From the NCBI GenBank assembly GCA_020629055.1, contig JAHDEB010000023.1:6164-47218 (forward strand): 41,055 nucleotides of DNA, given 5' to 3'. This DNA comes from Chloroflexota bacterium. GTDB taxonomy: Bacteria > Chloroflexota > Anaerolineae > Promineifilales > Promineifilaceae. Of this stretch, positions 1-26,213 are shown piece by piece (position 1 is the first letter of the stretch; every line of letters starts with the position of its first letter). A program made the translations under genes and the position numbers. Under the pieces are notes generated by a model. The model was not told the DNA's origin, did not search any database, and saw only the letters and a program-made list of their open reading frames with translations.

Positions 1-151
1 CGCGGGCCATCACCCCATTCTCTTTAACCCCACAAGCCATATTTCCGGCAATCATGAAGCCGATGCCGCCAAACATCTTCTTTTCAGAATAGGCCGGATG
101 CGAGTTAAGATAATTCCTAATTCTCTGTGCTAATGTTTCATCGTATGCCAT
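1..151 (-). CDS. TfoX N-terminal domain protein (partial, runs off window start)
   Basis: Only the first 50 codons are present; the gene reads leftward out of the window. The ATG is the complement of 149-151, and the protein begins MAYDETLAQRIRNYL. The downstream signature, KKMFGGIGFMIAGNMACGV, is typical of the TfoX/Sxy N-terminal domain. That fold is found in competence regulators and in many small proteins of unknown function. The role here cannot be told from a fragment. It is divergent from the NUDIX gene, and the 132 bp between them carry an inverted repeat. The family call is fairly sure; the function is not. Confidence 0.75.
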   Translation of the reverse strand, partial: MAYDETLAQRIRNYLNSHPAYSEKKMFGGIGFMIAGNMACGVKENGVMAR

Positions 152-205
152 AAAAAAACTTAGATCATTTGTGCTAAGGTCGCCAGTGTCTTAATTGTTT
201 GCTTT

Positions 206-267
206 AGACCTGACCGGTTTTGAACATGTTTTCTAAAGCAATTTGGTACGTAAAACTAGTCAGGTCT
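206..267. repeat. Interrupted inverted repeat (REP-like) between divergent genes
   Basis: The arm AGACCTGAC at 206-214 is matched in reverse complement by GTCAGGTCT at 259-267. The pairing extends inward imperfectly (CGGTTTT against AAAACTA), giving 14 of 16 paired positions around a loop of about 30 bases. It lies just before the NUDIX gene. It resembles palindromic intergenic repeats common in Chloroflexota, but could also be an operator or an mRNA hairpin. Confidence 0.5.
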
Positions 268-283
268 TTGTGGTAACAAAAAT

Positions 284-886
284 ATGTTTGAAAAAAAGAC
301 GATTAAAGAAAAATTAGAGCAGAGTCCCCCGGAACTGTTTTGGTGGCGCAGATGGGCCAAACGTGCGGCAACCGGAGCATTGCTCTCGAACAAACCGGAG
401 GTCACTGGAGGAGAGGGGACCCACGTGCTGTTGATGAAGCGAGCTGATCGTCCCGGAGATCCTTGGGCCGGTGATATGAGCTTCCCCGGCGGCCGTATGG
501 ACCCGGAAGATAAAATTATTTATACAACGGTGTTGCGGGAATTTGAAGAAGAGGTCGGCTTTAAACTGGCGACCGGTGCCGATTACTTAGGCCGTTTGCC
601 AGATACGATGGCTCGGCCGCCACGCTGGAATAGACGGCCGTTCGTTGTGGCGACATTTGTTTTTTGGCAGACAGAAATACCTGATTTTAAGCCTGATCCG
701 GTCGAAGTTGCTGATTTGGTTTGGCTGCCTTTGCAGTTTTTGGCTGATCGTAACAACCGAGAGACGATGGTGTGGAAGCGACAAGACATGGAAGTTGATC
801 TGCCTTGTTATTGGTATGGGGAGTATCGATTGTGGGGGTTAACATTGCGCATGCTCGACGATTTTTTATATCGCTTAGATGTGTAA
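284..886 (+). CDS. NUDIX hydrolase, CoA pyrophosphatase (NudL)-like
   Basis: A 200-residue protein with a clear NUDIX box: GGRMDPED starts at about residue 68 and REFEEEVGF follows. The spacing from GG to RE matches the CoA pyrophosphatase subgroup rather than the shorter MutT box. The preceding LLMKRADRPGDPWAGDMSF segment also fits that subgroup. Members cleave CoA or acyl-CoA to 3',5'-ADP and phosphopantetheine, using the box glutamates to bind Mg2+ or Mn2+. The gene heads a plus-strand run and is followed 51 bp later by an acyltransferase gene. No strong ribosome-binding site is seen. Substrate preference is inferred. Confidence 0.85.
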   Translation: MFEKKTIKEKLEQSPPELFWWRRWAKRAATGALLSNKPEVTGGEGTHVLLMKRADRPGDPWAGDMSFPGGRMDPEDKIIYTTVLREFEEEVGFKLATGADYLGRLPDTMARPPRWNRRPFVVATFVFWQTEIPDFKPDPVEVADLVWLPLQFLADRNNRETMVWKRQDMEVDLPCYWYGEYRLWGLTLRMLDDFLYRLDV

Positions 887-937
887 ATCCGTTAGAAGAT
901 AATGCCAGTGGGGAAGCCGTCGGGTAAAATTTAACCT

Positions 938-1957
938 ATGTCGTTGAAAACAAAAGTTGTATTGGGGAATCAAATATTTTCGGCCGTACCGCCACATGCT
1001 TGGGATGATTTGGCACGTGGTGGGATAACCGACACCCCGTTTCAAACCCATCTGTACCAAAAAACATGGTGGGAAAATTTAGGCCGAGGTGAACTGGTTT
1101 CAGTTGTTGTTGAAGATGACGGCAACCATTTGGCGGGCCTGGCGGTTTTCCTTCTAGAGGATGGGATTTTACAATTTAACGCCTCTAAAGAAGAGACAGA
1201 CTATCTCGACATCATCGTCAAGGCTGAGCATGCCGAGGCGGTTTGGGCGGCCGTTTTTGATTCTTTGGCCAACGATTCAGATTGCCCTGCATGGCACACG
1301 CTCGACTGTTGGAACATTCCGGCCGAATCCCCTTCTAAATCTATTTTGCCCCGACTTGCCCAAGATCGGGGTTTTTCTTTAAACACAGAAATCGCTGAAG
1401 TCTGCCCTGTCATCCCGCTGAGCGGTAGTTTTGACGACTATTTGGCCGGTATTAATAAAAAACAGCGTGGGGAGATTCGGCGCAAGGTCAAGAAAGCGAC
1501 TGCGGCCGGAGTGACAATTGAAGTCATTGGGGCTGACGACGATCTGGACCAAGCGATAGATGATTTTCTACACCTGTTGCAGTGTTCCACGGCCGATAAA
1601 CAGGCATGGTTTGACGAACTTCCCAGCCGCGGTGAGGTGTTCCGCACGGTGGCCAAAGGTGCCTTGGACGCTGGCAGCTTGCTATTGATGTTCACAACTT
1701 TAGAAGACCAACGCATTTCAGCATTATTCAACTTTATCTATGATGGACGGGTTTGGGTTTATAATTCTGGCAATGACACGAGTCAACATCGTCATTTAAG
1801 CTTGGGATGGGTGTTGACCGCACATGCCATCATGCACGGTATTGAGCATGGTTGCCATTCATTCGACTTTTTGCGTGGCGATGAGACCTATAAGTACCGT
1901 TTTGGCGGGCAAGATACGGAGATTTTTCGTTTAACATTGCGTAAAGACGAGCAATAA
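938..1957 (+). CDS. GNAT-fold acyltransferase, BioF2/FemAB-like
   Basis: A 339-residue soluble protein. The basic segment KKQRGEIRRKVKKA (about residues 174-187) and the later VYNSGND...LSLGWVL...HGC..FDFLRG stretch are typical of the BioF2-like (CelD/FemAB-related) acetyltransferase domain. Members usually transfer an acyl or aminoacyl group to a cell-envelope sugar or peptide; the donor and acceptor here are unknown. It sits 35 bp before a GT4 glycosyltransferase, which suggests a shared role in building or decorating a glycan or glycolipid. No signal peptide, so it should act in the cytoplasm. The family is sure, the substrate is not. Confidence 0.8.
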   Translation: MSLKTKVVLGNQIFSAVPPHAWDDLARGGITDTPFQTHLYQKTWWENLGRGELVSVVVEDDGNHLAGLAVFLLEDGILQFNASKEETDYLDIIVKAEHAEAVWAAVFDSLANDSDCPAWHTLDCWNIPAESPSKSILPRLAQDRGFSLNTEIAEVCPVIPLSGSFDDYLAGINKKQRGEIRRKVKKATAAGVTIEVIGADDDLDQAIDDFLHLLQCSTADKQAWFDELPSRGEVFRTVAKGALDAGSLLLMFTTLEDQRISALFNFIYDGRVWVYNSGNDTSQHRHLSLGWVLTAHAIMHGIEHGCHSFDFLRGDETYKYRFGGQDTEIFRLTLRKDEQ

Positions 1958-1992
1958 CGGCACTCACGAACGGCCGAAGCGAAGATAAGATC

Positions 1993-3261
1993 ATGAATTC
2001 ACAACCAGAACAAATTAAACGTATCGCCATGCTATCGGTGCATACATGTCCATTGGCGATGATGGGTGGAAAAAAAACGGGTGGTATGAATGTCTATGTC
2101 CGAGACTTGGCTCGAGAACTAGGTCGCCAAGGATATATGGTTGACGTATTCACCCGATCTGAAGATGAATGCCAGCCACAGGTTAAACATGATTTAGGGT
2201 ATGGCGGCCGTGTGATCCATATTAAAGCGGGGCCAGAGATTCCGGTTCGGCCGCCTGAAATCATCGCCCATATCGACGAATTTGTAGATGGATTGCTCGC
2301 TTTTGCCGAGGAAGAAGGGGCGGTTTATGACGTTATCCATTCGCATTACTATTTGTCTGGATTGGTTGCAGAACGGCTAAAACAGGTTTGGTGCGAACGC
2401 TTTGGGCGAAAAATTTCGATTGTACAGATGTTCCATACGTTGGGGCATATGAAAAATAAGATTAATCCTCGACCGGAAGAGCGTGCGCCACAGGCTCGGA
2501 TCGATGCGGAGGCCCACATCATTCAAAATGTGGCCGACGTGATTGTGTCGGCAACACCGGCCGAAGTGGAACAATTGCAAATATTGTACGGTGCAGACCC
2601 ATCTAAGATTCAAATTTTGCCTCCTGGGGTCGATTTAAATCGATTTTCACCCCAAAATCGGACAGCGGCTAAAGAGAAGCTCGGCATAGACCCTGCTGGG
2701 TTTAACATTATGTTTGTTGGCCGCATCGAACCGTTAAAAGGGATTGATGCGTTCATCGAAGCTGCTTCGATACTGTGGGAGCATCATCCGGCCGAAATGC
2801 AGGTGGCCCACTTTACGATTGTTGGGGGAGACCCATGGGCGGAAAACCCGGAAACTGAGATGGCTCGATTGCAAGCGCTGCGTCATCAGCTCAATGTAGA
2901 GCAGCTGGTCGGTTTTGTCGGTGCAAAGAATCAGAATGAACTGCCAACCTATTACGCTGCGGCCGATGTGGTTGTCATGCCGTCTCACTATGAAAGTTTT
3001 GGAATGGTCGCGCTAGAAGCGATGGCGATGGGGACACCGGTCATCGCTTCAGAAGTTGGGGGCCTAGCCCATTTGGTTCAAGATGGGAAAACAGGTTTTC
3101 ATATTCCACCACGGTCGGCCGATGCCTTGGCGCTGCGGTTGTGCGACCTGTTGTTTAACCCCAAGTTGCGCGAAAAATTAGGCAAACAGGCCTTAGAATA
3201 TGCACAAACCTATGATTGGAAGCTGATCGCGGCCAAGATGGGTGACGTTTACACCCTTTAG
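1993..3261 (+). CDS. Glycosyltransferase family 4, MshA/sucrose-phosphate-synthase-like
   Basis: A 422-residue GT-B enzyme. The N-terminal half opens with RIAMLSVHTCPL, then GGKKTGGMNVYVRDLARELG, a glycine-rich acceptor-side loop seen in MshA-like and sucrose-synthase-like GT4 enzymes. HSHYYLSG follows at about 116. The C-terminal half has FVGRIEPLKGID (about 240), then PSHYESFGMVALEAMAMGTPV, which contains the E-x7-E nucleotide-sugar motif (about 331-351). These are retaining enzymes using a UDP- or GDP-sugar; the acceptor cannot be read from sequence. It lies between an acyltransferase and a sugar ABC importer on one strand. Confidence 0.85.
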   Translation: MNSQPEQIKRIAMLSVHTCPLAMMGGKKTGGMNVYVRDLARELGRQGYMVDVFTRSEDECQPQVKHDLGYGGRVIHIKAGPEIPVRPPEIIAHIDEFVDGLLAFAEEEGAVYDVIHSHYYLSGLVAERLKQVWCERFGRKISIVQMFHTLGHMKNKINPRPEERAPQARIDAEAHIIQNVADVIVSATPAEVEQLQILYGADPSKIQILPPGVDLNRFSPQNRTAAKEKLGIDPAGFNIMFVGRIEPLKGIDAFIEAASILWEHHPAEMQVAHFTIVGGDPWAENPETEMARLQALRHQLNVEQLVGFVGAKNQNELPTYYAAADVVVMPSHYESFGMVALEAMAMGTPVIASEVGGLAHLVQDGKTGFHIPPRSADALALRLCDLLFNPKLREKLGKQALEYAQTYDWKLIAAKMGDVYTL

Positions 3262-3301
3262 CCGTCATTGAATGATAGGGGGTGGAATTTTTTAGGGGGT
3301 C

Positions 3302-4174
3302 GTGCGAAGATTGCATATGGGCTCTTTCCGCCACCAATTTTCTTCCATTTTTAATCGCGATATAGTCTATGTGGCCCCGTGGCTTATCGGGACGCTGATT
3401 TTGGTGGTTGTCCCTACACTGTCGCTTTTTGGGCTAGCTTTTTGGGAAGATGAGGCTCTCTCTGCTGGGGCGATCGGCCGGTTGATTGAATCTGATCTGG
3501 TGCGCCTATCGTTTTTTAACAGCCTGTTTTTCGTTTCAATCGCAGTACCGGTGCGCATTTTGGGGGCATTCTTTTTAGCCCTTTTGCTGCGGCCGAACCG
3601 GCTTGGCCCTGCCCGAGCGGCTGTGTTTTTACCCTCAGTTATCCCTCCGCCAGCTTGGGCACTAATCGGACTCTGGCTGTTTAACCCCCTTAACGGCCCC
3701 ATCAATTTAGTTTTACAAGGATTGGGATTTTCGGCCGTTAATTGGCTGGTTAACGCCAATGCGACCCGAATCATGTTTGTGATTTTGTCCGGCTTTCAGT
3801 TAGGCGAAGGGTTTGTTGTACTTCTGATCGGCCGCGCTTTAATCCCTGATCATTTATACGATGCGGCCCGCATCGATGGGGCGGGGCTGTTTGGCCGATT
3901 TTGGACCATTACCCTGCCGTTGATGGTCCCTTGGTTGGCACTTTTAACCGGCCGCGATCTGCTTGTAAGCTTGCAAGGGACATTTACACCGTCGTTTGTG
4001 ATCACTTACGGTGGCCCCTACTATTCGACGACCTTTTTACCTCTATTAATTTATGAATTGGCTTTTGACTTTCGGGACCCTGCACTTGTTGCTTTGGTGA
4101 TGCTCGTTGTATTTTCGACCTTGGCCGGGGTTGGTCTATGGCTGTGGCGGGGGGTGGCTTTTCGTGACGGGTAA
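3302..4174 (+). CDS. Sugar ABC transporter permease 1 (MalF/UgpA type)
   Basis: A 290-residue inner-membrane protein with about six hydrophobic helices. The EAA-loop region reads YDAARIDGAGLFGRFWTITLPLMVP (about residues 183-208), the contact site for the ATPase. WLIGTLILVVVPTLSLFGLAF is the first helix. It pairs with the next gene to form a CUT1-type sugar channel. The given start is a GTG just after an AGGGGG stretch; an in-frame ATG at 3317 is a reasonable alternative. It begins 40 bp after the glycosyltransferase and its end overlaps the next permease, so the genes are probably co-transcribed and translationally coupled. Confidence 0.87.
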   Translation: MRRLHMGSFRHQFSSIFNRDIVYVAPWLIGTLILVVVPTLSLFGLAFWEDEALSAGAIGRLIESDLVRLSFFNSLFFVSIAVPVRILGAFFLALLLRPNRLGPARAAVFLPSVIPPPAWALIGLWLFNPLNGPINLVLQGLGFSAVNWLVNANATRIMFVILSGFQLGEGFVVLLIGRALIPDHLYDAARIDGAGLFGRFWTITLPLMVPWLALLTGRDLLVSLQGTFTPSFVITYGGPYYSTTFLPLLIYELAFDFRDPALVALVMLVVFSTLAGVGLWLWRGVAFRDG

Positions 4175-4985
4175 AAGGGTGATGGCCGGCCGCTTTGCGC
4201 TGGCGATTTTGATTGCAGCTTTGTTTACCTTGCCGGCGGCACTGGCCGTTTTGGGTTCATTGTTCCCCATTGGCCTGTGGGACGTTACCGATTGGACGAC
4301 AAACCTGTTTACTCCTCATTGGAGCAATTATCGAACGCTTTTTCAGACGATTGATGGTGGACGACAGTTAGGGAATTCGCTTCTCGTAGTCATTGTAGGT
4401 GTGCCGGTTTCAATTATTACATCATCCTTGGCCGGATTCTTTATCGTGAATCAACCTCAACCGTGGCGCAGGTGGTTGGTGGTGTTTGCAATTGTCACGA
4501 TGCTGATACCACCATCGGCCGTGTGGCTGCTGCGGTTTCAGGTGTTCCAGCGCTTGGGACTGCTTGACACGCTCTTTGCGCTGATTGCGCCTGCATTTGC
4601 AGGGGGGAACTCTCTGTTTGTGCTGGTCTATTTTTGGGCCTGGTCACAAATCCCGACAGAATTATTTGAGGCGGCCAAGATCGATGGGGCGGGGTTTTTA
4701 ACCCGCTGGCGACGCGTTGCGATGCCGTTGGTGCGCCCGGCAACCGCTGCTGTCGGGCTGTTGGCGTTTATGCTGTTTTGGGGCAGCTTTATCGAACCGC
4801 TTTTGTTTATTTATGATCCGCACAAATACACATTGCCGATCGGGCTGCAACTGCTGAATCAGCTAGACTCTACCAATCGGCCGCTGCTGTTGGCCGGTGC
4901 CGTTGTCGCCATGGCCCCACCAATTGCGCTATTTGCCGTTGCACAAAGATGGTTTTTGCATGGAAGCGTGATCGATGAAGGCTAG
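4164..4985 (+). CDS. Sugar ABC transporter permease 2 (MalG type)
   Basis: Second channel subunit, about 274 residues with six hydrophobic helices. The EAA loop is present as LFEAAKIDGAGFLTRWRRVAMPLVRP. The open frame extends upstream, but those residues (CGGGW and so on) are unlike the family. I therefore start at GTG 4164, which has a GGGGGG stretch about 9 bases upstream; ATG at 4182 is possible. The start overlaps the first permease by 11 bp and the end overlaps the binding-protein gene by 11 bp, a tight translational chain. No ATP-binding subunit follows. Confidence 0.85.
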   Translation: MTGKRVMAGRFALAILIAALFTLPAALAVLGSLFPIGLWDVTDWTTNLFTPHWSNYRTLFQTIDGGRQLGNSLLVVIVGVPVSIITSSLAGFFIVNQPQPWRRWLVVFAIVTMLIPPSAVWLLRFQVFQRLGLLDTLFALIAPAFAGGNSLFVLVYFWAWSQIPTELFEAAKIDGAGFLTRWRRVAMPLVRPATAAVGLLAFMLFWGSFIEPLLFIYDPHKYTLPIGLQLLNQLDSTNRPLLLAGAVVAMAPPIALFAVAQRWFLHGSVIDEG

Positions 4986-6195
4986 TCGATCACTTCTCTG
5001 GCTGTTGTTTGGCTTGATTGTGTTGACTCTAACGAGCTGCCAGCAAGATCAAGCAGCTGAAAAAACGACTGTTTCTTTCGCATTTGCGGGGGATGCGGCC
5101 GAATTTGATGCCTATACCAAACTAATCCTTACATTTGAAAATCAGCACCCAAATATCGATATTCAGATGCGCCATGCCCCATCCCGGCAAGACTTTCAGC
5201 AAAAACTGGTGACGATGCTTGACGCCGGTTCACCGCCCGATGTGGTGTTGCTCAACTACCGGCGCATCGCCCGTTTTGTAGCAGATGGGGATCTACATCC
5301 TGTAGGGTCGCACGCGGCCGAATTAGACATAGAGCGAGAGGCGTTTTTCCCCATAGCCCTAGATGCCTTTACCTATCAAGATGAACTATGGTGTGTGCCG
5401 CAAAATATCTCTAGTTTGGTGGTGTATTTTAATCAAGATTTATTCGACCTGGCAGGGGTGGCATACCCGGCCGCGGGTTGGGATTGGGACGACTTTTTAC
5501 AAGCGGCTATCGACCTAACTGATGAGCCGAAAAGATATGGGGCTGGGGTCGAACCGAACCTCTATCGGTTGGCCCCGTTTGTGTGGCAGGCGAACGGTGC
5601 GGTTTATGATGAGAATCTGGATCTATTGCCACCGATCGAGCCCAATATCCGCGCAATGTCGAGGTTTACGGCGCTACAGACGGTTTATCAGGTTGTGCCA
5701 GACCAGACTGCGGCCGCTGCACAATCGGTTGAAGAGCGCTTTTTGGCTGGGCACATCGGCATGCTTTTTGATAGCCGCCGCTTAACGCCAACGCTGCGCC
5801 AAGCGGCTGATTTTCGGTGGGATGTCGCCCCTTTGCCACAGGGTGAACGGGTGGCGAGCGTTTTGCATAGTGATGGGTACTGCTTGGGGCGATCCCCTTC
5901 GGCCGCAACGCTAGAATTTATCCGTTTTGCAACATCTGAGACGGGGCAAAGGCTCATGGCGGAAACCGGCCGAACGGTTCCTTCTTTGCAATCGGTCGCC
6001 CATTCAACCCCGTTTTTAGACAGCACACAGCCGCCGGCTGCTAGTCACATTTGGCTAGACGGGGTGGAACATCTAGAACGGGTTCCACATCACCCCGATT
6101 GGATTCAATGGGAGAAGGAAGTTTCGGCTGAGTTGAGTCAGCTGTTTTACGGGAATATCACCCTTGAAATGTTTCTAGAAACCCTTGAAAATTAA
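4975..6195 (+). CDS. Sugar ABC transporter solute-binding lipoprotein
   Basis: A 406-residue extracytoplasmic binding protein of the family 1 (MalE/UgpB) type. The N-terminus is a lipoprotein signal peptide with lipobox LTSC, the lipidated cysteine being residue 22. Later landmarks are ILTFENQHPNIDIQMRHAP, the SPPDVVLLNYRRIARFVADGDL hinge region and a GRSPSAATLEFIRF stretch. It captures a sugar or polyol and delivers it to the two permeases just upstream. The ligand is unknown. The binding protein is last in the gene order, which is less common than first. Confidence 0.86.
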   Translation: MKASRSLLWLLFGLIVLTLTSCQQDQAAEKTTVSFAFAGDAAEFDAYTKLILTFENQHPNIDIQMRHAPSRQDFQQKLVTMLDAGSPPDVVLLNYRRIARFVADGDLHPVGSHAAELDIEREAFFPIALDAFTYQDELWCVPQNISSLVVYFNQDLFDLAGVAYPAAGWDWDDFLQAAIDLTDEPKRYGAGVEPNLYRLAPFVWQANGAVYDENLDLLPPIEPNIRAMSRFTALQTVYQVVPDQTAAAAQSVEERFLAGHIGMLFDSRRLTPTLRQAADFRWDVAPLPQGERVASVLHSDGYCLGRSPSAATLEFIRFATSETGQRLMAETGRTVPSLQSVAHSTPFLDSTQPPAASHIWLDGVEHLERVPHHPDWIQWEKEVSAELSQLFYGNITLEMFLETLEN

Positions 6196-6248
6196 TCTGC
6201 AACTAATCTATTTCCAACGGCGTATTGAGCAGCGGAAGAGTTAACCAC

Positions 6249-6316
6249 TTTACATAACATAAATATTGTGTAAAATTTTCTCTGAAAATGAGGAAAAGGT
6301 TAATGAAAATTTAACC
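6249..6316 (+). promoter_or_regulatory. Likely mscL promoter with two small dyads
   Basis: TTTACA at 6249-6254 and TAAAAT at 6271-6276 are separated by 16 bases and fit a sigma-70-type promoter. TTTACA is also mirrored by TGTAAA at 6269-6274. A second inverted pair, GGTTAA at 6298-6303 and TTAACC at 6311-6316, lies in the leader. The mscL ribosome-binding site AGGAGA is just downstream. The dyads could be operators or chance in AT-rich DNA. Confidence 0.45.
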
Positions 6317-6339
6317 CAAAATACTATAGGAGAATTTCA

Positions 6340-6741
6340 ATGTTAAAAGAATTTCGGGATTTCATAGCAAAAGGCAACGTCATGGACCTTGCCGTCGCGG
6401 TCATCATCGGTGGCGCGTTTGGTGCAATTGTTACGTCATTGGTCAACGACATCATTATGCCACTGGTTGGCTTGGTGCTTGGCGGCCGCAGCTTCGACAA
6501 TATGTTCGTGTCGCTAGACGGCAGCGCATATGCGACATTAGCGGCAGCTCAAGAAGCTGGTGCAGCGACCTTAAATTATGGTCTGTTTATCAATGCGATT
6601 ATCAACTTCTTGATCATCGGCTTTGTGATTTTCTTGATGGTTAAACAAATCAACAAGATTAATCCGCCTGAAGAGCCAGCACCTGCTGGACCAACGGCCG
6701 AAGAGCTATTGGCAGACATTCGCGACCTGTTGAAAAAATAA
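6340..6741 (+). CDS. mscL: Large-conductance mechanosensitive channel MscL
   Basis: A 133-residue protein of normal MscL length. It begins [20 protein letters not shown], the conserved amphipathic N-terminal helix plus the start of TM1. [21 protein letters not shown] completes the pore-lining helix. TM2 is [20 protein letters not shown], and the C-terminal helical bundle carries [12 protein letters not shown]. It forms a homopentameric inner-membrane pore that opens under membrane tension and releases solutes on osmotic downshock. An AGGAGA site lies 8 bases before the ATG. It appears to be a single-gene unit with its own promoter and terminator. Confidence 0.97.
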
Positions 6742-6760
6742 AATTTTTGACGGAAAAGCA

Positions 6761-6800
6761 AAAAGGGCTGGTCGGAATTTCCGACCAGCCCTTTTTTGTT
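6761..6800. terminator. Bidirectional intrinsic terminator between mscL and M48 gene
   Basis: A 15-bp perfect stem, AAAAGGGCTGGTCGG at 6761-6775 and its complement at 6781-6795, closes on a 5-base loop. It runs into a T-rich tract on the plus strand and an equivalent one on the minus strand. It lies between convergent genes ending at 6741 and 6818, so it should stop transcription from both sides. Confidence 0.92.
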
Positions 6801-6817
6801 GCCTGTTTTTTGTTTCG

Positions 6818-7708
6818 TTAATCGATGTATTCAGGCGGGACACCGTTTGGAAAGTTCTCGTTGACGAAATCTTCGATGCCTTGAATCCGATTGCCTGGAT
6901 CGGGGTGGGTGCTCATAAATTCCGGTTGCCGAGCACCGCCTCCTGATGCGGCCAAGATCTCCATGACGCGGGTCATTGAGGCGGGATTGTAACCGGCTGA
7001 CATCATGATTTCTAAGCCAAGATGGTCAGACTCGAGTTCATCTTCACGGCCGTATTTCATGTTAACCATGCCACCGATCATTTGAGCCATGCGGGCGGTG
7101 CCTTGGCATGACGAACCGCCGTCACATGCCGCCATCACAACTGCGCCGGTTAACCCCTCGGTTAGCTCTTGTTTGGCGATGCGTTGTGCACCGTGCCGGG
7201 CGATAACGTGGCCGATTTCATGCCCCAAAACACCGGCAAGCTGGGCTTCTGTCTCTAGTTGATTAAATAGAGCAGCCGTAATAAATGTGGGGCCACCGGG
7301 CAATGCAAAGGCGTTAATCACCTGATCATCAGCCAACAGCGTAAATTCAAACGGATATTCTGAAGTGGCCGCAAAGCTGTTGCGTACTAAGTTTTCACCC
7401 ACCATGTCGACCAATGCTTGCGCTTCGGGGTCAGGATCTAGCCCACCGTGCTGTTGCACCATTTGGGGAACAGCCTGTAGCCCCATCGTTATTTCTTGAT
7501 CTCGGGTCAGGCTAATATATTGAACTTCGCCGGTGGTTGGGTTGACTTCTCTTTTGCTTAAAAAAGAAAAAAATGCGAATGCGGCCACGACGAGGCCGAT
7601 GATGAGACGCATTTTTAAGGCGCTGCCTGCCCCGTTGCGTGGGGTTCCACGCCTGCGAATCGTTTGCCCATTGGGGGCGCGTCGGGTTGATTGTCTTTGA
7701 TATGTCAT
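6818..7708 (-). CDS. Membrane-anchored M48 family zinc metallopeptidase
   Basis: A 296-residue protein. A basic N-terminal tail (residues 1-33) is followed by a single hydrophobic anchor (about 34-52), then a catalytic domain. The zinc motif HEIGH is at residues 163-167. The third ligand is likely E224 in the ELESD context, with D228 as the usual supporting acidic residue. This is the BepA/YcaL/Oma1-like M48 branch, linked in other bacteria to envelope protein quality control. The orientation of the anchor suggests an extracytoplasmic catalytic domain, but this is inferred. Two cysteines (195 and 201) may form a disulfide. It is probably co-transcribed with the membrane-protein gene 18 bp upstream. 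Confidence 0.9.
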   Translation of the reverse strand: MTYQRQSTRRAPNGQTIRRRGTPRNGAGSALKMRLIIGLVVAAFAFFSFLSKREVNPTTGEVQYISLTRDQEITMGLQAVPQMVQQHGGLDPDPEAQALVDMVGENLVRNSFAATSEYPFEFTLLADDQVINAFALPGGPTFITAALFNQLETEAQLAGVLGHEIGHVIARHGAQRIAKQELTEGLTGAVVMAACDGGSSCQGTARMAQMIGGMVNMKYGREDELESDHLGLEIMMSAGYNPASMTRVMEILAASGGGARQPEFMSTHPDPGNRIQGIEDFVNENFPNGVPPEYID

Positions 7709-7726
7709 GATGTTATTTCCTCCGCT

Positions 7727-8224
7727 CTAATCCTCGATCCACTCATCGCCTTCATACATCTCATCTTCAAATATTTCGTAGAGCCCGCCTACACATGCAC
7801 CAAATAGAACGTGGACCCACGCCATGTTGGTAGACCGCAGGCCAGACATCCACGGGAAGAAGAGGTCTGAAAAGAAGTAAAAGTTGATCGCGTAGAATGC
7901 TAATCCTAATAAGCCCCCGCCGAAAATGCCGACTAAAATGCCCCAACGATGAATGATGAGTGCGATTAAGCCGGCCGCTAAAAATGAGATGATGAGGTGG
8001 GTAATGACACCGATAATCAATGAACCTGCATTAAGCGGATTCCACAAGGCGCTGGCCCCCATCACCATAGATGCGATTAATTTGATGAACGTGGCCATGG
8101 TGCCACCAGCGGCCGTGGCCGCCATTGAGCCGGTTACCAGAAAGACGATGCTGCTGATAATGCCTGCCCATCCGACAGCACCCCAGTCGGTGTCGGCATA
8201 AATGGGTACGTTTTTATCTTCCAT
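7727..8224 (-). CDS. Small polytopic membrane protein, unrecognised family
   Basis: A 165-residue protein with about four hydrophobic segments: WAGIISSIVFLVTGSMAAT, a Gly/Ala-rich stretch with LIASMVMGA, LIIGVITHLIISFLAAGLIALII, and GIFGGGLLGLAFYAINFYFF. It ends in an acidic tail (EIFEDEMYEGDEWIED). No known domain is recognised. It is translated from an ATG next to AGGAG (complement of 8229-8233). It sits 18 bp upstream of the M48 protease gene on the same strand, so it may be a partner or substrate-presenting membrane protein; that is a guess from context. Upstream DNA at 8318-8329 holds the perfect palindrome TTAGATATCTAA, a possible operator. Confidence 0.75.
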   Translation of the reverse strand: MEDKNVPIYADTDWGAVGWAGIISSIVFLVTGSMAATAAGGTMATFIKLIASMVMGASALWNPLNAGSLIIGVITHLIISFLAAGLIALIIHRWGILVGIFGGGLLGLAFYAINFYFFSDLFFPWMSGLRSTNMAWVHVLFGACVGGLYEIFEDEMYEGDEWIED

Positions 8225-8413
8225 TGATTCCTCCTAAAAATGGTTGCGAACCGCTGGCTTGGCTGCCGAACGGTTATGATCTTTACGATGTGATTTTAAG
8301 ATAGGCTCAGCTTGATATTAGATATCTAACTTTAGTAAAAATGATACCTGATTTTAGGGGATTGTGTATCGGATAGCGGGCGTTTTGGGGTCTAACTTCG
8401 ACAAGCTAAGGAT

Positions 8414-9646
8414 CTAATCACCCACGGCCGGGGCTGTTGCGAGTAAGGGAGAATTATCTTTTAAAGGCAGATGGATGAAAAACGCCATGACCGCTAAAAC
8501 AATCCCCATAATCCAGACCGGCATGTAGCTGCCTTGGGTGTCGAAAAAGCGGCCGCCGAGCCATACACCTAAAAACGATCCGATTTGATGGCCAAAGAAG
8601 ACAAAACCGTACAAAGTCGAGAGATAGCGCGACCCAAATATTTGGGCGATGAGGCCGCTGGTGAGCGGGACGGTGGCCAAGTAGAGCAGGCCGAATGCGG
8701 AGCCAAACACAAGCGCGGTCGTGTTGCTGAGCGGCAACAGTAAAAACAGGGCAAAAACGATGGCGCGGCCCAGGTAGATGCCGCTGAGCATGTATTTCTT
8801 CCGGTAGCGGTCACCCAGCCAGCCGGAAAGCGGCGAGCCGATCATGTTGAATAGACCGATGAGCGAAAGAGCGAGCGCTCCGATATTGGCCGCAATCCCT
8901 TTGTCAACCAAATAGGCGGGCAGATGGGTGCTGACAAAGGCGACGTGGAAGCCGCACACAAAGAACCCTGCAAACAGGAGCCAGTAGGAGCCGCTTTTAC
9001 CCGCTTTGCGTAAGACGGGTAGCAAAGTTTCTTCTTCCTCTTCTGGGTTGTGCGTGGCTGATTCCCCTTGTTTGGGTGCACCCGGAAAGCGTGAGGCGAC
9101 TAGGACGATGATGAGCACCATGCCCCCCATGAACATAAAGGTGGTTTGCCAGCCGACGATGGTGCGCAACTGCTCCATCCCAAAAACAACGGCGAACATG
9201 CCAAATGAGCCAGCGGCCGTGATGAGGCCGAACGCCGTACTGCGCCGTTCAGGCGGGACGATTTTCGCGACGGCACCGAGTGCGACGACATAGGTTGTGG
9301 CGCTAAGTGCAAGGCCGATGAGGACGCCGAAAGAGGTAAACAGCGTAAATGTACTTGGAGAAAGCGCAAACCAGAAAATCGCCAAACTGTAGAGCAGCCC
9401 ACCCCCGATGGCGACCCCGCGTGAGCCGTACCGGTCGGCCAAAATACCGATGAGCGGAAAACCGTAAATGAGCTGTTGAATGGCGATGGCGAGGCTAAAT
9501 GTTTCGCGGCTGATGTTGAGATCTGCAACCAGCGGCCGCAAGAAGATGCCAAAGCTTTGGCGGATACCGACGCTGATAATGACGATGACGATGGCTATTT
9601 GGACGATGTAGGAGCGATTTTGGACATTTGGTTCTGAGGTTGACAT
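8414..9646 (-). CDS. MFS transporter, monocarboxylate/oxalate-formate-antiporter-like
   Basis: A 410-residue, roughly 12-helix carrier. SFGIFLRPLVADLNISRETFSLAIAIQQL and the GILADRYGSRG loop 2-3 motif are typical of MFS members near the OFA/MCT group. The half-repeat motif returns as GWLGDRYRKKYML in the second half. An acidic linker (HNPEEEEE) separates the halves. Substrate is unknown. It is the last gene of a P450/DHA2/MFS operon, starting 17 bp after the DHA2 stop, so it may import a substrate or export a product of the P450. Confidence 0.85.
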   Translation of the reverse strand: MSTSEPNVQNRSYIVQIAIVIVIISVGIRQSFGIFLRPLVADLNISRETFSLAIAIQQLIYGFPLIGILADRYGSRGVAIGGGLLYSLAIFWFALSPSTFTLFTSFGVLIGLALSATTYVVALGAVAKIVPPERRSTAFGLITAAGSFGMFAVVFGMEQLRTIVGWQTTFMFMGGMVLIIVLVASRFPGAPKQGESATHNPEEEEETLLPVLRKAGKSGSYWLLFAGFFVCGFHVAFVSTHLPAYLVDKGIAANIGALALSLIGLFNMIGSPLSGWLGDRYRKKYMLSGIYLGRAIVFALFLLLPLSNTTALVFGSAFGLLYLATVPLTSGLIAQIFGSRYLSTLYGFVFFGHQIGSFLGVWLGGRFFDTQGSYMPVWIMGIVLAVMAFFIHLPLKDNSPLLATAPAVGD

Positions 9647-9663
9647 GCGGTTTCAGGTGGAGC

Positions 9664-11220
9664 CTAGGCCGTGTGTCGACCGTCAGGCTGACTATCTTTT
9701 GGAATTGTTAGGAATAGTATGACTAAACTGGCCAAAACCAAAATGGCAGAAATAAACATATTGGTACGGAAACCGTCGACAAAGGCGAGCCGAATTATTT
9801 GCTCGATTTCGGCGACCGTTTCGGCAGGCAGATTGGCTGGCGGAGTCGTTTCTGCCAGATTTCGAGCCTGGGCCAACAATGTGGTTTGAACATCGGCCGG
9901 CAAATTATAACTGGCGATGCGCGAGGCCAAACCAGTACGGAAACGATTGACCATGACCGCCCCCAAAACCGCAACCGAAAGCATTTGTCCCAGTCGAGAG
10001 GCGGCATTGTTCACGCCAGAAGCGATCCCCGATTGGTTCGCAGGCAGTGCTTGCAGCCCTAAGCTGGTGATGGGTACCACTAAAAACCCCAGGCCGATGC
10101 CGTACAGCAAAATACCGGGCAGCCAATGGGTCCAGTAGGATTGGTCGACTGAAGGCCACATGAGCAAGAAAAATGCGGCGGCGATAATAATGTTGGCGAT
10201 GATGATCAGCGGTCTTGCCCCGATTTTGTCAATGAGTCGGCCCATTTGGCGGGCCATTAAAAACAGCGAAAGGGCGATCGGCATGATGGCTAGCCCCGCT
10301 TGGGCGGCCGTGTACCCTTGCACCTGCTGAAAGTTGAGGGTGATAAAGAAAAAGGGGCCACCCAAACCGAAATACAAAATAATCGTCATGAGGTTGACGC
10401 CGGTGAACACCGGTATTTTAAATAGGTTTAAAGGGATGAGCGGTGCCGGAACCCATGATTCAACCCAAACAAAGGTGATGAGCCCTACTGCGCCGATGAC
10501 AAGGCTGGCAAGGATAAGCGGCGATGACCAGCCGAAATTCGGCCCTTCGATAAGGGCGAATAGCAGACCGCTTAGCCCTAACATGAGGGTAATGAGGCCG
10601 AGCCAATCGAGCCGGCCGTCTACTTCTTCATTTTTGTTTTCAGGCACGTAGCGCCATGCGACAAAAATGGCCAAAAGACCGAGCGGCAAGTTGATGAAAA
10701 AGACGGAGCGCCATGAGGCGAAATCGACGAGCCAGCCGCCGATGACGGGGCCAGCTACGGTGATTAACGGTGAAAATGTCCCCCAAATACCGAGCATACG
10801 GCCGCGCCGCTCTGGGGCCACAACGGCGTTGATGATAGCCAACCCGCCAGGGGCGACCAGAGAGCCGCCAACCCCTTGCAAAAATCGGCCCGCAATAAGC
10901 CATCCAGCGGTGGGGGCCAAGCCACACAGCACAGATGCCCCGATAAAGATGGCCATACCGATGATGTAGACACGTACCCGGCCGAAGATGTCGCCTAACA
11001 CGCCGCCGATTAACATCAAAACCGAAAGGACGAGCAGGTAGATGTCGAGGATCCACTGCAATGCGCCAATGTCTGCATTCAGGCTCGATTGTATGGCTGG
11101 CAGGGCGACGTTAACGGCCGATTGGTCTAGAAAAACGATGCCGGAACTAAGAATGGCGAGGGTAAGCGCCATCTTTTCGGCAAATGGGATTAAACGGAGT
11201 GGGGTTGTGCTTTCGGCCAT
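9664..11220 (-). CDS. DHA2 family (EmrB/QacA-type) MFS exporter
   Basis: A 518-residue, roughly 14-helix carrier. LDQSAVNVALPAIQSSLN is the DHA2 helix-1 motif. LSVLMLIGGVLGDIFGRVRV is the loop 2-3 motif, and GAPTAGWLIAGRFLQGVGG-like helix 4-5 residues follow (APTAGWLIAGRFLQGVGGSL). Family members pump drugs or hydrophobic metabolites out using the proton gradient. It is encoded between a P450 and another MFS carrier with short gaps (46 and 17 bp), so the likely job is export of an oxidised or toxic compound. No fusion partner HlyD-like gene is present. Confidence 0.88.
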   Translation of the reverse strand: MAESTTPLRLIPFAEKMALTLAILSSGIVFLDQSAVNVALPAIQSSLNADIGALQWILDIYLLVLSVLMLIGGVLGDIFGRVRVYIIGMAIFIGASVLCGLAPTAGWLIAGRFLQGVGGSLVAPGGLAIINAVVAPERRGRMLGIWGTFSPLITVAGPVIGGWLVDFASWRSVFFINLPLGLLAIFVAWRYVPENKNEEVDGRLDWLGLITLMLGLSGLLFALIEGPNFGWSSPLILASLVIGAVGLITFVWVESWVPAPLIPLNLFKIPVFTGVNLMTIILYFGLGGPFFFITLNFQQVQGYTAAQAGLAIMPIALSLFLMARQMGRLIDKIGARPLIIIANIIIAAAFFLLMWPSVDQSYWTHWLPGILLYGIGLGFLVVPITSLGLQALPANQSGIASGVNNAASRLGQMLSVAVLGAVMVNRFRTGLASRIASYNLPADVQTTLLAQARNLAETTPPANLPAETVAEIEQIIRLAFVDGFRTNMFISAILVLASLVILFLTIPKDSQPDGRHTA

Positions 11221-11266
11221 TGGGGAAATGTATCCCGAATGGCTGTGTTGGGAAAGCTTGATGGGG

Positions 11267-12643
11267 CTACTGTGATCGTCTCGTTACTTTGATGTTTAGT
11301 CCGTTTTCTGGGCTGATGGTGATGAGCGGCCGAGGGATGATCGATTGACCTGGAACGATTTCGAAATTGAACGTTTGTAGCAATTGGATCAAAATGAGCT
11401 GAGCTTCGATCATGGCGAACTGGGCCCCGATACAAACCCGTGGTCCGGCCCCAAAGGGCAAATAAGCGTAACGAGGGATGTTGCCCGCTCTTGTGGGATG
11501 GAATCGTTCGGGTTTAAACGCTTCTGGATTTGGGAAATATGATTCTTGCCGATGGAGGGCGTATGGTGAAATAACGATCCAGCTTCCTTTGGGGAAACGG
11601 TAATCACCGACGGTCGTATCTCGCTGAACTTCTCGATAGGCCAGCGACCAGACAGCTGGGAATAGGCGCATCGATTCTTTTAACACCATGGCGGCATAGG
11701 GGAGTTGGTCTAGATCGGCCATGGTTGGGCGACGCCCTTGAAGGACTTGGTCGATTTCGTTGGTAAGTTTTTGGGCCACATGCCGATTTTGGCCCAACAG
11801 GTAAAAGGTCCAGATGAGGGTGTTGGCCGTCGTTTCATGCCCTGCACTAAACAGGTTGTTGACCTCATCGAAGATTTGTTGTTTTGGCATCGGCCGTCCT
11901 GCGTCATTGCGCGCATTGATTAAGGTGGTTAATAGGTCTCCATGGTCGATGTTGGTGCGCATCCGCTGTTCGATGATCGGCATTAAAATTTCTTGGAGTG
12001 TTTGATTGTTCTTTTTGAACTGCCGATTTCCTCGTGTGGGAACCCAGTCTGGCATTTTAAAGCCAAGCCAAAACTCTTTTTCGATCCAGATTTGATTGTT
12101 GGCGATCGCATCGGCCGCCCGCTGTGCATCTTTGGCCATCGTCCGTTTGTCAGCGTTAAACAGTGTTTTCGAAACGATGAACATCGTTAGGCGCATCATG
12201 TCGTTATGCAGATCTCGATTGGGATTACGCTCCCACTCTTTTAGTAAGTCGGCCGTGTAGGTGGTCATGACTCGGCTATAAGCTTCCATCCGTTTGTGAT
12301 GGAAAAGCGACTGCATCATCTTGCGCTGACCGGCGTGGAATTTGCCATCGCTGGGGACCAATCCATTGCCTAGCGCCTTGCTTAACGTGCCACGAAAGGG
12401 GGCCGCTTTGGGAAACTCGGCCGCCCGTTTGACCAACACTTCACGCACAAGCTCAGGGTGCTGCACCATGATGAGCCGCTTGGGGCCGACACGTAGCTGG
12501 ACGAGTTCTGGGTGTTTTTGCGCCATTTGACGCATGCTGGCCAACACATCTTTTTTAAAATCAATGATGTGGCCAAGTGGGTGATAGCGAACATCTTTGG
12601 GAATCGGTTTGTAGGCCGGTTCGGTGTGGGATAATTCGATCAT
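11267..12643 (-). CDS. Cytochrome P450
   Basis: A 458-residue soluble P450 with all hallmark motifs. The I-helix oxygen-binding site AGHETT is at residues 267-272, ExxR is KESMR with E323 and R326, and the heme loop is PFGAGPRVCIG with ligand cysteine C404. No membrane anchor is present. It is a bacterial class enzyme resembling the CYP102/CYP4-type fold (long chain, FxPERF motif as FKPERFHP); fatty-acid or terpenoid hydroxylation is plausible but not provable. No reductase or ferredoxin gene is nearby, so electrons must come from partners encoded elsewhere. An AGAGGAAG site precedes the ATG. First gene of an operon with two MFS carriers. Confidence 0.94.
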   Translation of the reverse strand: MIELSHTEPAYKPIPKDVRYHPLGHIIDFKKDVLASMRQMAQKHPELVQLRVGPKRLIMVQHPELVREVLVKRAAEFPKAAPFRGTLSKALGNGLVPSDGKFHAGQRKMMQSLFHHKRMEAYSRVMTTYTADLLKEWERNPNRDLHNDMMRLTMFIVSKTLFNADKRTMAKDAQRAADAIANNQIWIEKEFWLGFKMPDWVPTRGNRQFKKNNQTLQEILMPIIEQRMRTNIDHGDLLTTLINARNDAGRPMPKQQIFDEVNNLFSAGHETTANTLIWTFYLLGQNRHVAQKLTNEIDQVLQGRRPTMADLDQLPYAAMVLKESMRLFPAVWSLAYREVQRDTTVGDYRFPKGSWIVISPYALHRQESYFPNPEAFKPERFHPTRAGNIPRYAYLPFGAGPRVCIGAQFAMIEAQLILIQLLQTFNFEIVPGQSIIPRPLITISPENGLNIKVTRRSQ

Positions 12644-12880
12644 TTAACGCTTCCTCTTGTTGGTTTAGACCGGGTGTCAATCTGGTGTGTCAGGTGTAGG
12701 TTGTTGCGATTTAGATCTAGAAACAGATCCAAAATAGCGGTCGAGGTGTAGACATAACTTTAAATTTAGGATAGACGGATTCTTTTTGCCAATCATTTGA
12801 GCGAATTTGAAAAGAAATCGCTTTTCTTGAATAGAAAAGGGGGGCGAGTGAGCTAAGTTTGTCATTTACCTAAACACAAA
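12644..12880. other. Intergenic region with the P450 operon promoter, no gene seen
   Basis: About 240 bases upstream of the P450 start and beyond the subtilase terminator. The stretch is AT-rich from 12740 to 12840 and should hold the leftward P450 promoter, but I could not choose convincing -35/-10 boxes. A short minus-strand open frame here (12677-12865) has no protein-like composition and is not called. Confidence 0.4.
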
Positions 12881-12926
12881 ATCGGCCGCATGCTAGGTTG
12901 GGGTAAACCAACATGCGGCCGATCGT
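12881..12926 (-). terminator. Intrinsic terminator of the subtilase gene
   Basis: A 12-bp perfect stem pairs ATCGGCCGCATG at 12881-12892 with its complement around 12912-12924, and an inner GGTT/AACC pairing closes the loop. Read on the minus strand it is followed by TTTTGTGTTT, so it should end the leftward transcript of the gene that stops at 12983. The stem is built on the genome's iterated hexamer CGGCCG. Confidence 0.8.
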
Positions 12927-12982
12927 TATCATTTAGGCTACGGTCTTAAACGTCTCCCTACTGAGACATTAACACTGTGACA

Positions 12983-15900
12983 TTAACAAAGTTGGGAGAT
13001 AAAAATTGTATGGGGGATAATGTCGTTCGTTTTTCCTCCCGAATCTGTTACCCGCAAGGTTACCATGTGGCTCGTACCGCAACCTGTGGCTGTAAAATTA
13101 TGCGTGATCGTCACTGAACCGGTCGAAGTGTTCACCGTACCGCTTCCGAGTGGGCCGGCCACGCTATCGATCCATTCAACGGTCAATTCTGAATAAGCAT
13201 CTTCCTGATCATCAATTTGACCGGCGAGCGTTAGCCTCTTGTACCAAATACCGTCAATCCCCATGGTATCCACATGAAACGATGAATCATTTGCTGGTGA
13301 GGTGATTGAAGCGGTTGGTTTTAGATTGAAACAATCTGGATCACTGGCCCCTAAGATGGTCAAACTAACTGTCTCTGTCTCTGATAAGCCACCATCATCT
13401 GTCACAGTCAGGGTGATTGTATGCTCACCAGTGCTCAGAAAACTGATCGGAAGCGGATTCCCATTTCCTAAGTTCCCATCAAGTGATGAACGCCAGTTGT
13501 ACCCCAATGCTGGAATCCCATCGAGCTGATTGGGGTCAAACGAGCTACCCAAGAAGTTAATCTCTTGGCTAGAGCAAATTTCAGCATTGTTCGATGGGTA
13601 TTCAATGACAGCGGTTGGAGCTGTGTTGAGGATTTGGATCGAAACTGAATCAGTGGCGTTAAAGCCACCACCCGTCATCGAAAAGGTAATGGTGTGGGTC
13701 CCACTGCTCAAATCATCGATAAAGAAGTTTGAGTTTGAACCACTTTCATCAAGAGGGGCGTTCCAACTGCCTGAGTGAAGTGCTCCATCTATATTTGATG
13801 TCCAGCTGTAGGTGAAGGTGGTTTCGTTTTCAAGCACGGCACCAATTTCAGCATTGAAAGAGATGGTCGTACCTTGCTGAGCATCGCTACCGGCTGATGG
13901 TGAGGTGATTTTCGCGGATGCTACCTCCCCAACCGCCTCGCGTACGGCCGCGTATGCATTCACATATCGGGGTACAGATGCATCTGGGCTGGTATGGGCT
14001 GTACTATTCATGATGTTCAAGACTTGATTAGCAGAAAGAGACGGGTCGGCCGCCCAGATAAGAGCTGCTACACCACCTGCGTATGGCGATGAAAAACTTG
14101 TTCCGCTAATGAGGCTTACATTGCCACCTTGAACAAGATTGTCCGGGTCTGCACCCATATAAACTCGATAAGGGGCAAACATGTGCACCCCACCATCGCT
14201 GCCCCAGTTAGAGCCGCCGGTGGTTCGGCCGGACCCGTCTACGCTGCGGGCGCGCATTGTCGAGTTCCACTCGATGCCACCCACACACACAACGCCATTA
14301 TTCTCACACGGGGTATGCCAGGTTCTTTCCCAGCAGATGCCGATAAAGCAGCGCTCAGCATCGACATCTTGGTAATCATTACCGGCCGAGGCGAACAAAA
14401 GTGCACCCGAAGCCCGAATCGCCATGGTTGTATGTTCAAATGGGAGTACCGTGAAGCTGACGACGGCGGGTACTTCCGCACTGTAGCTCATGTTGATGAC
14501 TTTGGCACCGGCCGCACGAGCGGCGATAACGCTTGCAATAGAGGTGACATAGTCGTAACCGGTGTAAATATTAATCGGTTCTGCTACCGTATGAGCAACA
14601 CCTACTACACCGTAAAAGTTGTCAGCTTCGGCCATGGCCGTTTGCATGACATGGTTGCCGTGCCAAGGAGATGCGCTTCCACCTCTGTCACCATCGGCCG
14701 TAACCCACGGAAAGATGGAAATGTGGGTCGTGCTGTCAGGATAGTCATTATTGGTGGCGAACCCTTTGTCCAAAACTGCGTATGGCACTCGGTTGTCCCA
14801 TTTCCCGCCGTGAATTAACACGTTCCACGCATCTGCTGTTCCGATGTCTTGTACACTGCCTCGATTCATGAATGACCAGTTGTACGGATTGGTTGTATAG
14901 GAAATTCCCCCCCAAGTGAGACCGTTGGTCGCTTCACGCGAACTATCAGGAGGTGTAGTGGGTTCACCGACCCAATTGACTCCGATCGTCGTACCGCCGA
15001 CCGCTTCTTTACCAGCAATCGCCATCAAACCAGCGGCGGTATCGCTAGAAAAACTGTGTTCGCCTCTGACCTTACCGTTTTCAGTGGTATCGAGTGCATC
15101 GAGATATGAGGCGAGTTGAGAAACGTCTCCTACTGTAGGGTCGATACGAATAAGATACATTTTAGGCAAATCAGTGATACCCGCTTCGGTTGGATCGATT
15201 TCTAGCAAGATCTCACCAGAATAATCAGCCACAATCTGGTTGATCACACTCATGTCGTCGGTTTCTACAAATATTTCGTTTTGCACAAATGTTGCCACAG
15301 CCCCATCTGGGTCACTCATCGCGCCCAGCGGTCGGGCCGGGTCCCCCGCGTTTAGGCCAGGCAAACTAGCCGCAAGCGGCTCAACCGTCTCGTCAATGTC
15401 GATTTGAATTTTCGGTGTGCTATTCGGTGGATTCGTGTCGCCACTTCCGCCGATTACAATAGGTAAGTAGACGGTATATCGGCTTGGTTCTGGATCTGGG
15501 GTTGGGTCAACCGTTACAGTTGTATTTGCACTTTGCTCAAATTCGCCCGTGCTACAAGGGGATAGTGAGCAAACTGTGATCGTATGGCTGCCAGGGGTTG
15601 CACCCATCGGAATCTCAAAGGTTGTAGAGAATTCTCCGCCGTCTGGGATTAGAAATCCACCGACATCAATTCCGTCCCAGCGAATTGTGGCGATGTAGCC
15701 ACCGGGCGTATAACCGCTTCCCTCAAGCGTTACTGACTCACCCGACTCAGCATTTGTGGGGGTTACGCTGAGCGTGGGGGTGGAAGAATTAGCCCTTTTT
15801 GGGATGAAGACATTAAATTTAGACTCTTCGCTTATGGCTGAAATGTCTTGGGTAAAAATATTCCATCTGCCTGAGCCGGGTGAATACCAGACGCCTAAAT

Positions 15901-16681
15901 TTGCTCGTGTGTTTTTTAGATAGTTTAGTATGCCATCATCCCAGTTTGTTTCAACAAATAAAATCGCATCTGGATTATCATTCAGTAAAGCGTGGTCTAA
16001 TTGAGTGGAGTTTGATGTGATATTTTCACTGGTGGCTTCATGAATATAGCTTTCATGAGTGCTGCTAGGTACAACAACATGAAAGGCGGCATTATTTGGC
16101 ATCGGGTTGAACTCATCAGCTTGTTCTTTGAAAATATTCCAACGGTTTACGGTTGCATCGCGCCCCACATAGGTTGTGTTTGGATTATAAACTTCATGGG
16201 GGGTCCAATAATGTGTGTTAAAAGGAATCGCCTCAGGTGCATTATTTAAACTGGGGTGGTCTAAGAAGGTTTCGTTGTAGCCATTGCCATCTTGATGGAT
16301 ATGCACAAAGGCGTCATCGCTTGACGAGGCGACGTATACATTAAAGGAAGCACCTAACGGCATGTCATTTTGATTTTCATTGTAGATGAGCCATTTTTCT
16401 TCGTTGTAATATACGCCGATGACGTTGTTGTTATAGACACCAGTGCCGTTGCTTGGGTTCCAGTTTTGGGTCACAATCAACTTCGCATTTGGATTACCAT
16501 TAAGACTGATATGGTTGAGCACTGTGATATGCGAGGCTGAGTTTTCTTCTGTCGTGGTATGGACGAAGTAGCTTGTGAACGGGGAGCTTTCTGTTTCTGC
16601 AAAAAGAATTTTGCCACCTTGTTGGCTGGTAAAGATGGTTAATAACAAAAGCCAACAAAACGATTTGAGAAGTTTTTTCAT
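12983..16681 (-). CDS. Exported multidomain subtilisin-like serine protease (S8)
   Basis: A 1232-residue secreted protein. Residues 1-28 form a signal peptide. Three tandem repeats of about 95 residues follow (about 33-305), each with an NxPdA...W and kW.IF/Y..FNVfVP pattern; I believe this is the DUF7452 type. Next come an Ig-like domain (306-395), the linker VYLPIVIGG, an inhibitor-like propeptide (about 440-560) and the subtilase domain with D638, H674 (HGNH), oxyanion N768 (SAGND) and S862 (SGTSFSSP). Three Ig/PKD-like domains (about 925-1232) complete it. All catalytic residues are intact. It probably degrades extracellular protein or processes surface proteins. The first 660 codons lack CGGCCG, unlike the rest. 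Confidence 0.92.
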   Translation of the reverse strand: MKKLLKSFCWLLLLTIFTSQQGGKILFAETESSPFTSYFVHTTTEENSASHITVLNHISLNGNPNAKLIVTQNWNPSNGTGVYNNNVIGVYYNEEKWLIYNENQNDMPLGASFNVYVASSSDDAFVHIHQDGNGYNETFLDHPSLNNAPEAIPFNTHYWTPHEVYNPNTTYVGRDATVNRWNIFKEQADEFNPMPNNAAFHVVVPSSTHESYIHEATSENITSNSTQLDHALLNDNPDAILFVETNWDDGILNYLKNTRANLGVWYSPGSGRWNIFTQDISAISEESKFNVFIPKRANSSTPTLSVTPTNAESGESVTLEGSGYTPGGYIATIRWDGIDVGGFLIPDGGEFSTTFEIPMGATPGSHTITVCSLSPCSTGEFEQSANTTVTVDPTPDPEPSRYTVYLPIVIGGSGDTNPPNSTPKIQIDIDETVEPLAASLPGLNAGDPARPLGAMSDPDGAVATFVQNEIFVETDDMSVINQIVADYSGEILLEIDPTEAGITDLPKMYLIRIDPTVGDVSQLASYLDALDTTENGKVRGEHSFSSDTAAGLMAIAGKEAVGGTTIGVNWVGEPTTPPDSSREATNGLTWGGISYTTNPYNWSFMNRGSVQDIGTADAWNVLIHGGKWDNRVPYAVLDKGFATNNDYPDSTTHISIFPWVTADGDRGGSASPWHGNHVMQTAMAEADNFYGVVGVAHTVAEPINIYTGYDYVTSIASVIAARAAGAKVINMSYSAEVPAVVSFTVLPFEHTTMAIRASGALLFASAGNDYQDVDAERCFIGICWERTWHTPCENNGVVCVGGIEWNSTMRARSVDGSGRTTGGSNWGSDGGVHMFAPYRVYMGADPDNLVQGGNVSLISGTSFSSPYAGGVAALIWAADPSLSANQVLNIMNSTAHTSPDASVPRYVNAYAAVREAVGEVASAKITSPSAGSDAQQGTTISFNAEIGAVLENETTFTYSWTSNIDGALHSGSWNAPLDESGSNSNFFIDDLSSGTHTITFSMTGGGFNATDSVSIQILNTAPTAVIEYPSNNAEICSSQEINFLGSSFDPNQLDGIPALGYNWRSSLDGNLGNGNPLPISFLSTGEHTITLTVTDDGGLSETETVSLTILGASDPDCFNLKPTASITSPANDSSFHVDTMGIDGIWYKRLTLAGQIDDQEDAYSELTVEWIDSVAGPLGSGTVNTSTGSVTITHNFTATGCGTSHMVTLRVTDSGGKTNDIIPHTIFISQLC

Positions 16682-17331: not shown

Positions 17332-17427
17332 AAACTGTCCCAATCTAGGGAACGTATTAACCCTGCTGAATAAAATCAACAAAATTTGTTTAATTTTTCT
17401 CATTATGGTTTCTTCTAGATGCGATTG

Positions 17428-26210: not shown

Positions 26211-26213
26211 CAA

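Follow-up and report, generated by a model that had tools for sequence, protein, structure and literature searches.

One order of Chloroflexota writes the palindrome CGGCCG into its genomes under a pressure that is genome-wide, lineage-restricted, symmetric and specific for the exact word, and whose target changes between lineages. The exact palindrome is about 15 times (the 6-letter word, in the genome of the window organism) to about 150 times (8-letter dialects) likelier than its synonymous alternatives. Highly iterated palindromes (HIPs) had until now been described in cyanobacteria; these words are a variant of the class that has unrelated letters and occurs in a different phylum. As a word of this class, CGGCCG is probably under the control of a sequence-specific reader.

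The window is the whole 41,055-nt stretch of DNA that was analysed (Table 1). Its copies of CGGCCG run from position 490 to position 40701 with a mean spacing of 290 bp, and their number is 11–14-fold above an expectation of 10.0 from uniform composition or 13.1 ± 3.6 from dinucleotide shuffles (maximum 21 in 100). CGGCCG is the top-ranking hexamer of the window, the runner-up palindromic hexamer has 29 copies, and none of the flanking bases is fixed. An earlier note on this DNA had listed 15 copies near the start of the window and put the local excess near 20-fold. Every listed start is an exact match, and uniform chance over 1–3121 gives 0.76 copies, so the figure holds. The same note placed the word in most of the window, inside genes and in terminators. 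The first part stands, with 123 copies in coding and 18 in non-coding DNA when open reading frames are called mechanically, by length. The second does not: across positions 1–20000, terminator-like hits are at chance level (29 versus 24.7 ± 4.8), and the sole strong terminator there, at 6760–6796, is without the word. The glycosyltransferase-like frame has homologues at 84% and 69% protein identity in metagenome-assembled genomes labelled Chloroflexi bacterium and Ardenticatenaceae bacterium, which marks the window organism as a Chloroflexota, probably close to the Ardenticatenaceae. The longest stretch free of CGGCCG may be recently acquired sequence.

Table 1. Coordinates of the features discussed, in the window and in two related genomes
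Feature	Location	Strand	Remark
CGGCCG copies	window, 1..41055	.	141 exact copies
Fifteen CGGCCG copies listed earlier	window, 490..3121	.	starts at 490, 614, 635, 981, 1248, 1320, 1503, 1590, 1971, 2205, 2248, 2558, 2789, 2960, 3116
Glycosyltransferase-like ORF	window, 1993..3261	+	several CGGCCG copies
Longest CGGCCG-free stretch	window, 14701..16909	.	2.2 kb; in large ORF 12983-16681 and beyond
N6_N4-type methylase	G114, L118:7663-9669	+	~670 aa
HaeIII-type restriction–modification pair	G151, L091:7848-10062	-	complete; RE_HaeIII E 2.7e-98, M.HaeIII match E 9e-124

The excess extends over the whole genome, as in a HIP. The assembly (6.6 Mb in 362 contigs, 82% complete) holds 19,809 copies of CGGCCG, or 3.0 per kb, versus 1,835 of the reversed control word GCCGGC. 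In a 319-kb sample of it, CGGCCG stands 10.9-fold over dinucleotide expectation; it alone of the palindromic hexamers is in large excess, the next reaching 2.7-fold. Shuffles of the same sample that keep proteins, codon usage and codon junctions predict 158 ± 10 coding copies, and 897 are seen. The excess over codon-based expectation on which the earlier note had staked its reading is therefore present, at 6-fold, and GCCGGC shows no excess in either the genome count or the shuffles. There is next to no chance that the word is a by-product of codon usage, GC content or the avoidance of all other palindromes: the GC palindromes GGCGCC, GGGCCC and CCCGGG are indeed avoided, but the codon- and junction-preserving shuffles, the excess in non-coding DNA and the behavior of the control word all speak against it, and codon bias and GC composition are ruled out by the first two.

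The trait is limited to a single order. When 298 genomes of the class were scanned, all 19 that represent this order had more CGGCCG than reversed control; 17 of them belong to the family of the window organism and two to a sister family, in which the excess is milder. In the rest of the class GCCGGC mostly outnumbers CGGCCG, and nowhere does CGGCCG reach a comparable excess. A phylum scan of 400 genomes agrees.

Within the order the word exists in dialects. In samples of 6 to 320 kb per genome the CGGCCG core is common to the dialects, and the flanks differ by lineage. The genus of the window organism and G151 use CGGCCG without fixed flanks. TCGGCCGA is dominant in G094 and G302, GCGGCCGC in G181 (282 of 324 core copies) and ACGGCCGT in seven sampled genomes; whole-genome counts in 56 genomes of the order extend ACGGCCGT to about 13 genera, with 15,176 copies versus 183 of the control in G300. 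In G311, a member of the same family, the core itself has switched. Its 45-kb sample has 43 copies of TGCCGGCA versus 1.9 expected and CGGCCG depleted to one tenth of expectation, and its whole genome has 3,665 copies of TGCCGGCA and 14 of ACGGCCGT. Small samples of G307, G308, G312 and G329 show a weak excess only. Lineage variants and a replacement palindrome, both known from HIPs, are thus found here as ACGGCCGT, TCGGCCGA and GCGGCCGC and as TGCCGGCA, respectively, and on an rpoB tree the dialect labels need the least possible number of changes. G181 (L081-L090) has a second enriched palindrome beside GCGGCCGC, namely GCCGCGGC, with 31 copies versus 5.6 expected.

The strength of the pressure was expressed as occupancy, the share of places permitted by the encoded amino acids that spell the word. 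Occupancy by CGGCCG is 0.56 (897/1,615) in the window organism, 0.66 in G281 and 0.79 in G151, and it rises to 0.73–0.90 in the 8-letter CGGCCG dialects; TGCCGGCA reaches 0.54 in G311. Outgroups lie at 0.00–0.25, like the control word. In the ACGGCCGT genomes, 228 of the 236 Thr-Ala-Val tripeptides are written ACG-GCC-GTN. One value suffices for all reading frames if the probability of a sequence state is modelled as multiplied by a constant factor, K, for every copy it contains: for ACGGCCGT, K=146 predicts 224, 165 and 69 copies in the three frames, and 228, 154 and 76 are observed. Values in genes and between genes agree within about two- to three-fold (coding/non-coding 16/14 in the window organism, 92/92 in G214, 29/10 in G281 and 52/123 in G254). 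As in HIPs, the excess goes beyond codon usage and is found in both kinds of DNA. Because one K serves all frames and a similar K serves non-coding DNA, the pressure on the word looks largely blind to context.

In the 8-letter dialects the pressure has also shifted protein sequence. The ACGGCCGT genomes have 236 Thr-Ala-Val (TAV) tripeptides versus 35 of the reversed VAT, and the outgroups 19 versus 15. In G094, a TCGGCCGA genome, Ser-Ala-Asp/Glu is found 45 times and its reverse 4 times; G302, sampled after this pattern was seen, has SA[DE] 40 times versus 3. The window organism shows a smaller asymmetry, Arg-Pro 255 versus Pro-Arg 145, which is partly present in outgroups too.

Copies are held in place between near relatives. 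Between two genomes close to that of the window organism, at 79% nucleotide identity to each other, 52 of 73 copies (71%) are kept, whereas the remaining all-GC hexamers are kept at 37% and ordinary ones at 27%. The window and one of these two genomes share 53%, 22% and 17% of the same classes, and a DNA search with part of the window against genomes of its genus gave almost no matches, the divergence being too high. The earlier note had proposed conservation in orthologues as a check. In rpoB compared between genera, site sharing is 0.468 versus 0.381 under independence, and once protein need is allowed for, control words, at 0.299 versus 0.191, have an excess that is no smaller. A position-specific function of the copies is therefore unsupported; together the two comparisons indicate that copies are held and that particular positions are not special.

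The cyanobacterial HIP1 is GCGATCGC, and alternate HIPs include TCGATCGA, GGGATCCC, GGCGCC, GCsGC and rCCGGy (Elhai 2015, PMC4390886). The earlier note had likened CGGCCG to HIP1, and the likeness is upheld quantitatively: measured in the same way on 150 kb from a plasmid of Anabaena (Trichormus) variabilis, HIP1 has an occupancy of 0.65 and K=192. This equal strength argues that the Chloroflexota word works like a HIP. Both are GC-rich palindromes of 6–8 letters at about 1–5 per kb, genic and intergenic, with lineage variants and, in some genomes, replacement by another palindrome. One-letter deviations from HIP1 are commonest at the outermost position (PMC4390886). The same is seen in the ACGGCCGT genomes, where outermost deviations reach 1.7–6.8 times expectation and inner ones 0.15–2.0; G181 shows no such bias and G094 hardly any.

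The word is not HIP1 proper, which is GCGATCGC accompanied by GATC/CGATCG methyltransferases; here the word is CGGCCG, and GCGATCGC does not figure among the genome's top enriched palindromic octamers. The Chloroflexota core is CGGCCG (once GCCGGC) and belongs to another phylum, the flank dialects cover whole genera whereas cyanobacterial variants occur in sporadic strains, tripeptide order is strongly shifted, and no common cognate methyltransferase was found. The open literature searched describes no HIP beyond cyanobacteria, and earlier reports may exist.

The pressure would be exerted by a palindrome-reading protein that is symmetric in its reading, and dialects would arise from shifts in how it recognises a flanking base or, rarely, the core. 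In cyanobacteria a resident methyltransferase accompanies every strongly over-represented word (PMC4390886), and the earlier note had offered a methyltransferase specific for GGCC or CGGCCG as a possible cause. None was found as a gene common to the genomes with the excess. C5-methyltransferases have no match in 7 of the 19 genomes of the order, all with the excess; the assemblies are incomplete, and these seven include G167 (100% complete) and G114 (98%). The sole C5-methyltransferase found in the assembly of the window organism matches Dcm over its full length, target-reading region included, which with the gaps speaks against a clade-wide C5 enzyme as the cause. In G204, from the same genus as the window organism (94% complete and with 25,568 copies), C5 and N4/N6 enzymes are both without a match. 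An N6_N4-type methylase with motif I before motif IV (Table 1) is found across the order adjoining MoxR/DUF58-like genes. It is ruled out as the determinant by its absence from G151 and G133, its presence in the weak-word G329 and its gaps in the genus of the window organism, where four of five genomes have no match and the fifth a marginal partial one. DndC scores over the family cut-off in only two of the 19 genomes, the sisters G244 and G214, and is absent from the genus of the window organism. Vsr occurs in five, several times beside C5-methyltransferase genes, and in none of that genus. Phosphorothioation by Dnd and very-short-patch repair are thus discarded as the general cause. Since no C5, N4/N6, Dnd or Vsr protein tracks the word, these genomes do not confirm the rule that couples HIPs to methyltransferases, as far as incomplete assemblies and unassigned enzyme specificities allow a judgement.

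A complete HaeIII-type restriction–modification pair is present in G151 (Table 1). It reads the inner GGCC of the word, but it occurs in one genome only, and restriction selects against GGCC while CGGCCG is in large excess. In G151 itself, GGCC outside the motif is depleted and CGGCCG is in 19-fold excess, which hints that CGGCCG is exempt from this restriction. G151 (L091-L100) also avoids most other palindromic hexamers (CGATCG 1 versus 55 expected, CGCGCG 2 versus 105, ATGCAT 1 versus 71), which suggests a heavy restriction load.

The likeliest single mechanism, put forward tentatively, is a putative GC-core DNA-modifying enzyme coupled to strand-biased mismatch repair. Mutations into the site would be kept, and mutations out of it would be reverted by the biased repair, as Elhai proposed for modification-coupled repair in cyanobacteria (PMC4390886). 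One-off words carry no clear deamination signature of methylated C, and this counts against a modification-based reading. Repair drive and selection yield the same equilibrium, so the equilibrium statistics fit both alike.

Selection that is weak and uniform, acting through a reader that does not methylate, is nearly as likely as modification-coupled repair, which still leaves it a doubtful proposition. Each copy would be slightly beneficial as the putative binding site of a protein that marks self DNA or shields it, whether by Chi-like nuclease protection, foreign-DNA discrimination or nucleoid organisation. Such selection fits a weight that is similar inside and outside genes and from frame to frame, the retention of copies in place, the lack of a methyltransferase that tracks the trait and the apparent exemption of CGGCCG in G151. 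No candidate for the reader protein was found, however, the densities of 2–5 per kb exceed the known need of such roles, and the known Chi sites, unlike this word, are not palindromic.

A role in DNA uptake is improbable. Competence would prefer DNA bearing the word, and conspecific uptake would then accumulate it. Lineage dialects, genome-wide spread and a uniform weight would all fit, and the uptake sequences of Neisseriaceae and Pasteurellaceae are likewise over-represented genome-wide with lineage dialects. Those sequences are, however, longer, non-palindromic and less dense, being about ten-fold rarer than the word in the richest genomes here (5.6 per kb in G151). Maintenance of the word by Dnd phosphorothioation is very improbable: the Dnd site of Streptomyces lividans does have a GGCC core, and G244 and G214 do carry dndC, but the scarcity of the gene across the order stands against it.

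It is possible, if rather unlikely, that the word belongs to a methylation-independent, palindrome-specific system of drive or selection. Its recognition protein would favour the site strongly enough for most codon choices, and many amino acids, able to spell it to do so, and a change in the specificity of this reader would replace one palindrome by another across the genome. If so, HIPs would be a general bacterial phenomenon and not a by-product of cyanobacterial methylation. HIP1 has gone unexplained for decades, in part because its study was limited to a single phylum, in which it goes along with methyltransferases and phylogeny. In this independent case, the dialects, core switch and near-losses inside one Chloroflexota family allow genes to be matched against the trait, and if more complete genomes confirm that there is no common methyltransferase, the accepted link between HIPs and methyltransferases needs revision. 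The pressure also dictates codons and shifts amino acids, and it therefore affects analyses of codon usage, synonymous substitution and phylogeny in these organisms.

Elsewhere in the Chloroflexota, GCCGGC far outnumbers CGGCCG in G028, G099, G371, G379, G381, G516, G578, G118 and G163. The counts are 23,451 versus 6,866 in the 3.1 Mb of G028 and 5,940 versus 81 in G379, and these lineages possibly carry further HIPs with a GCCGGC core.
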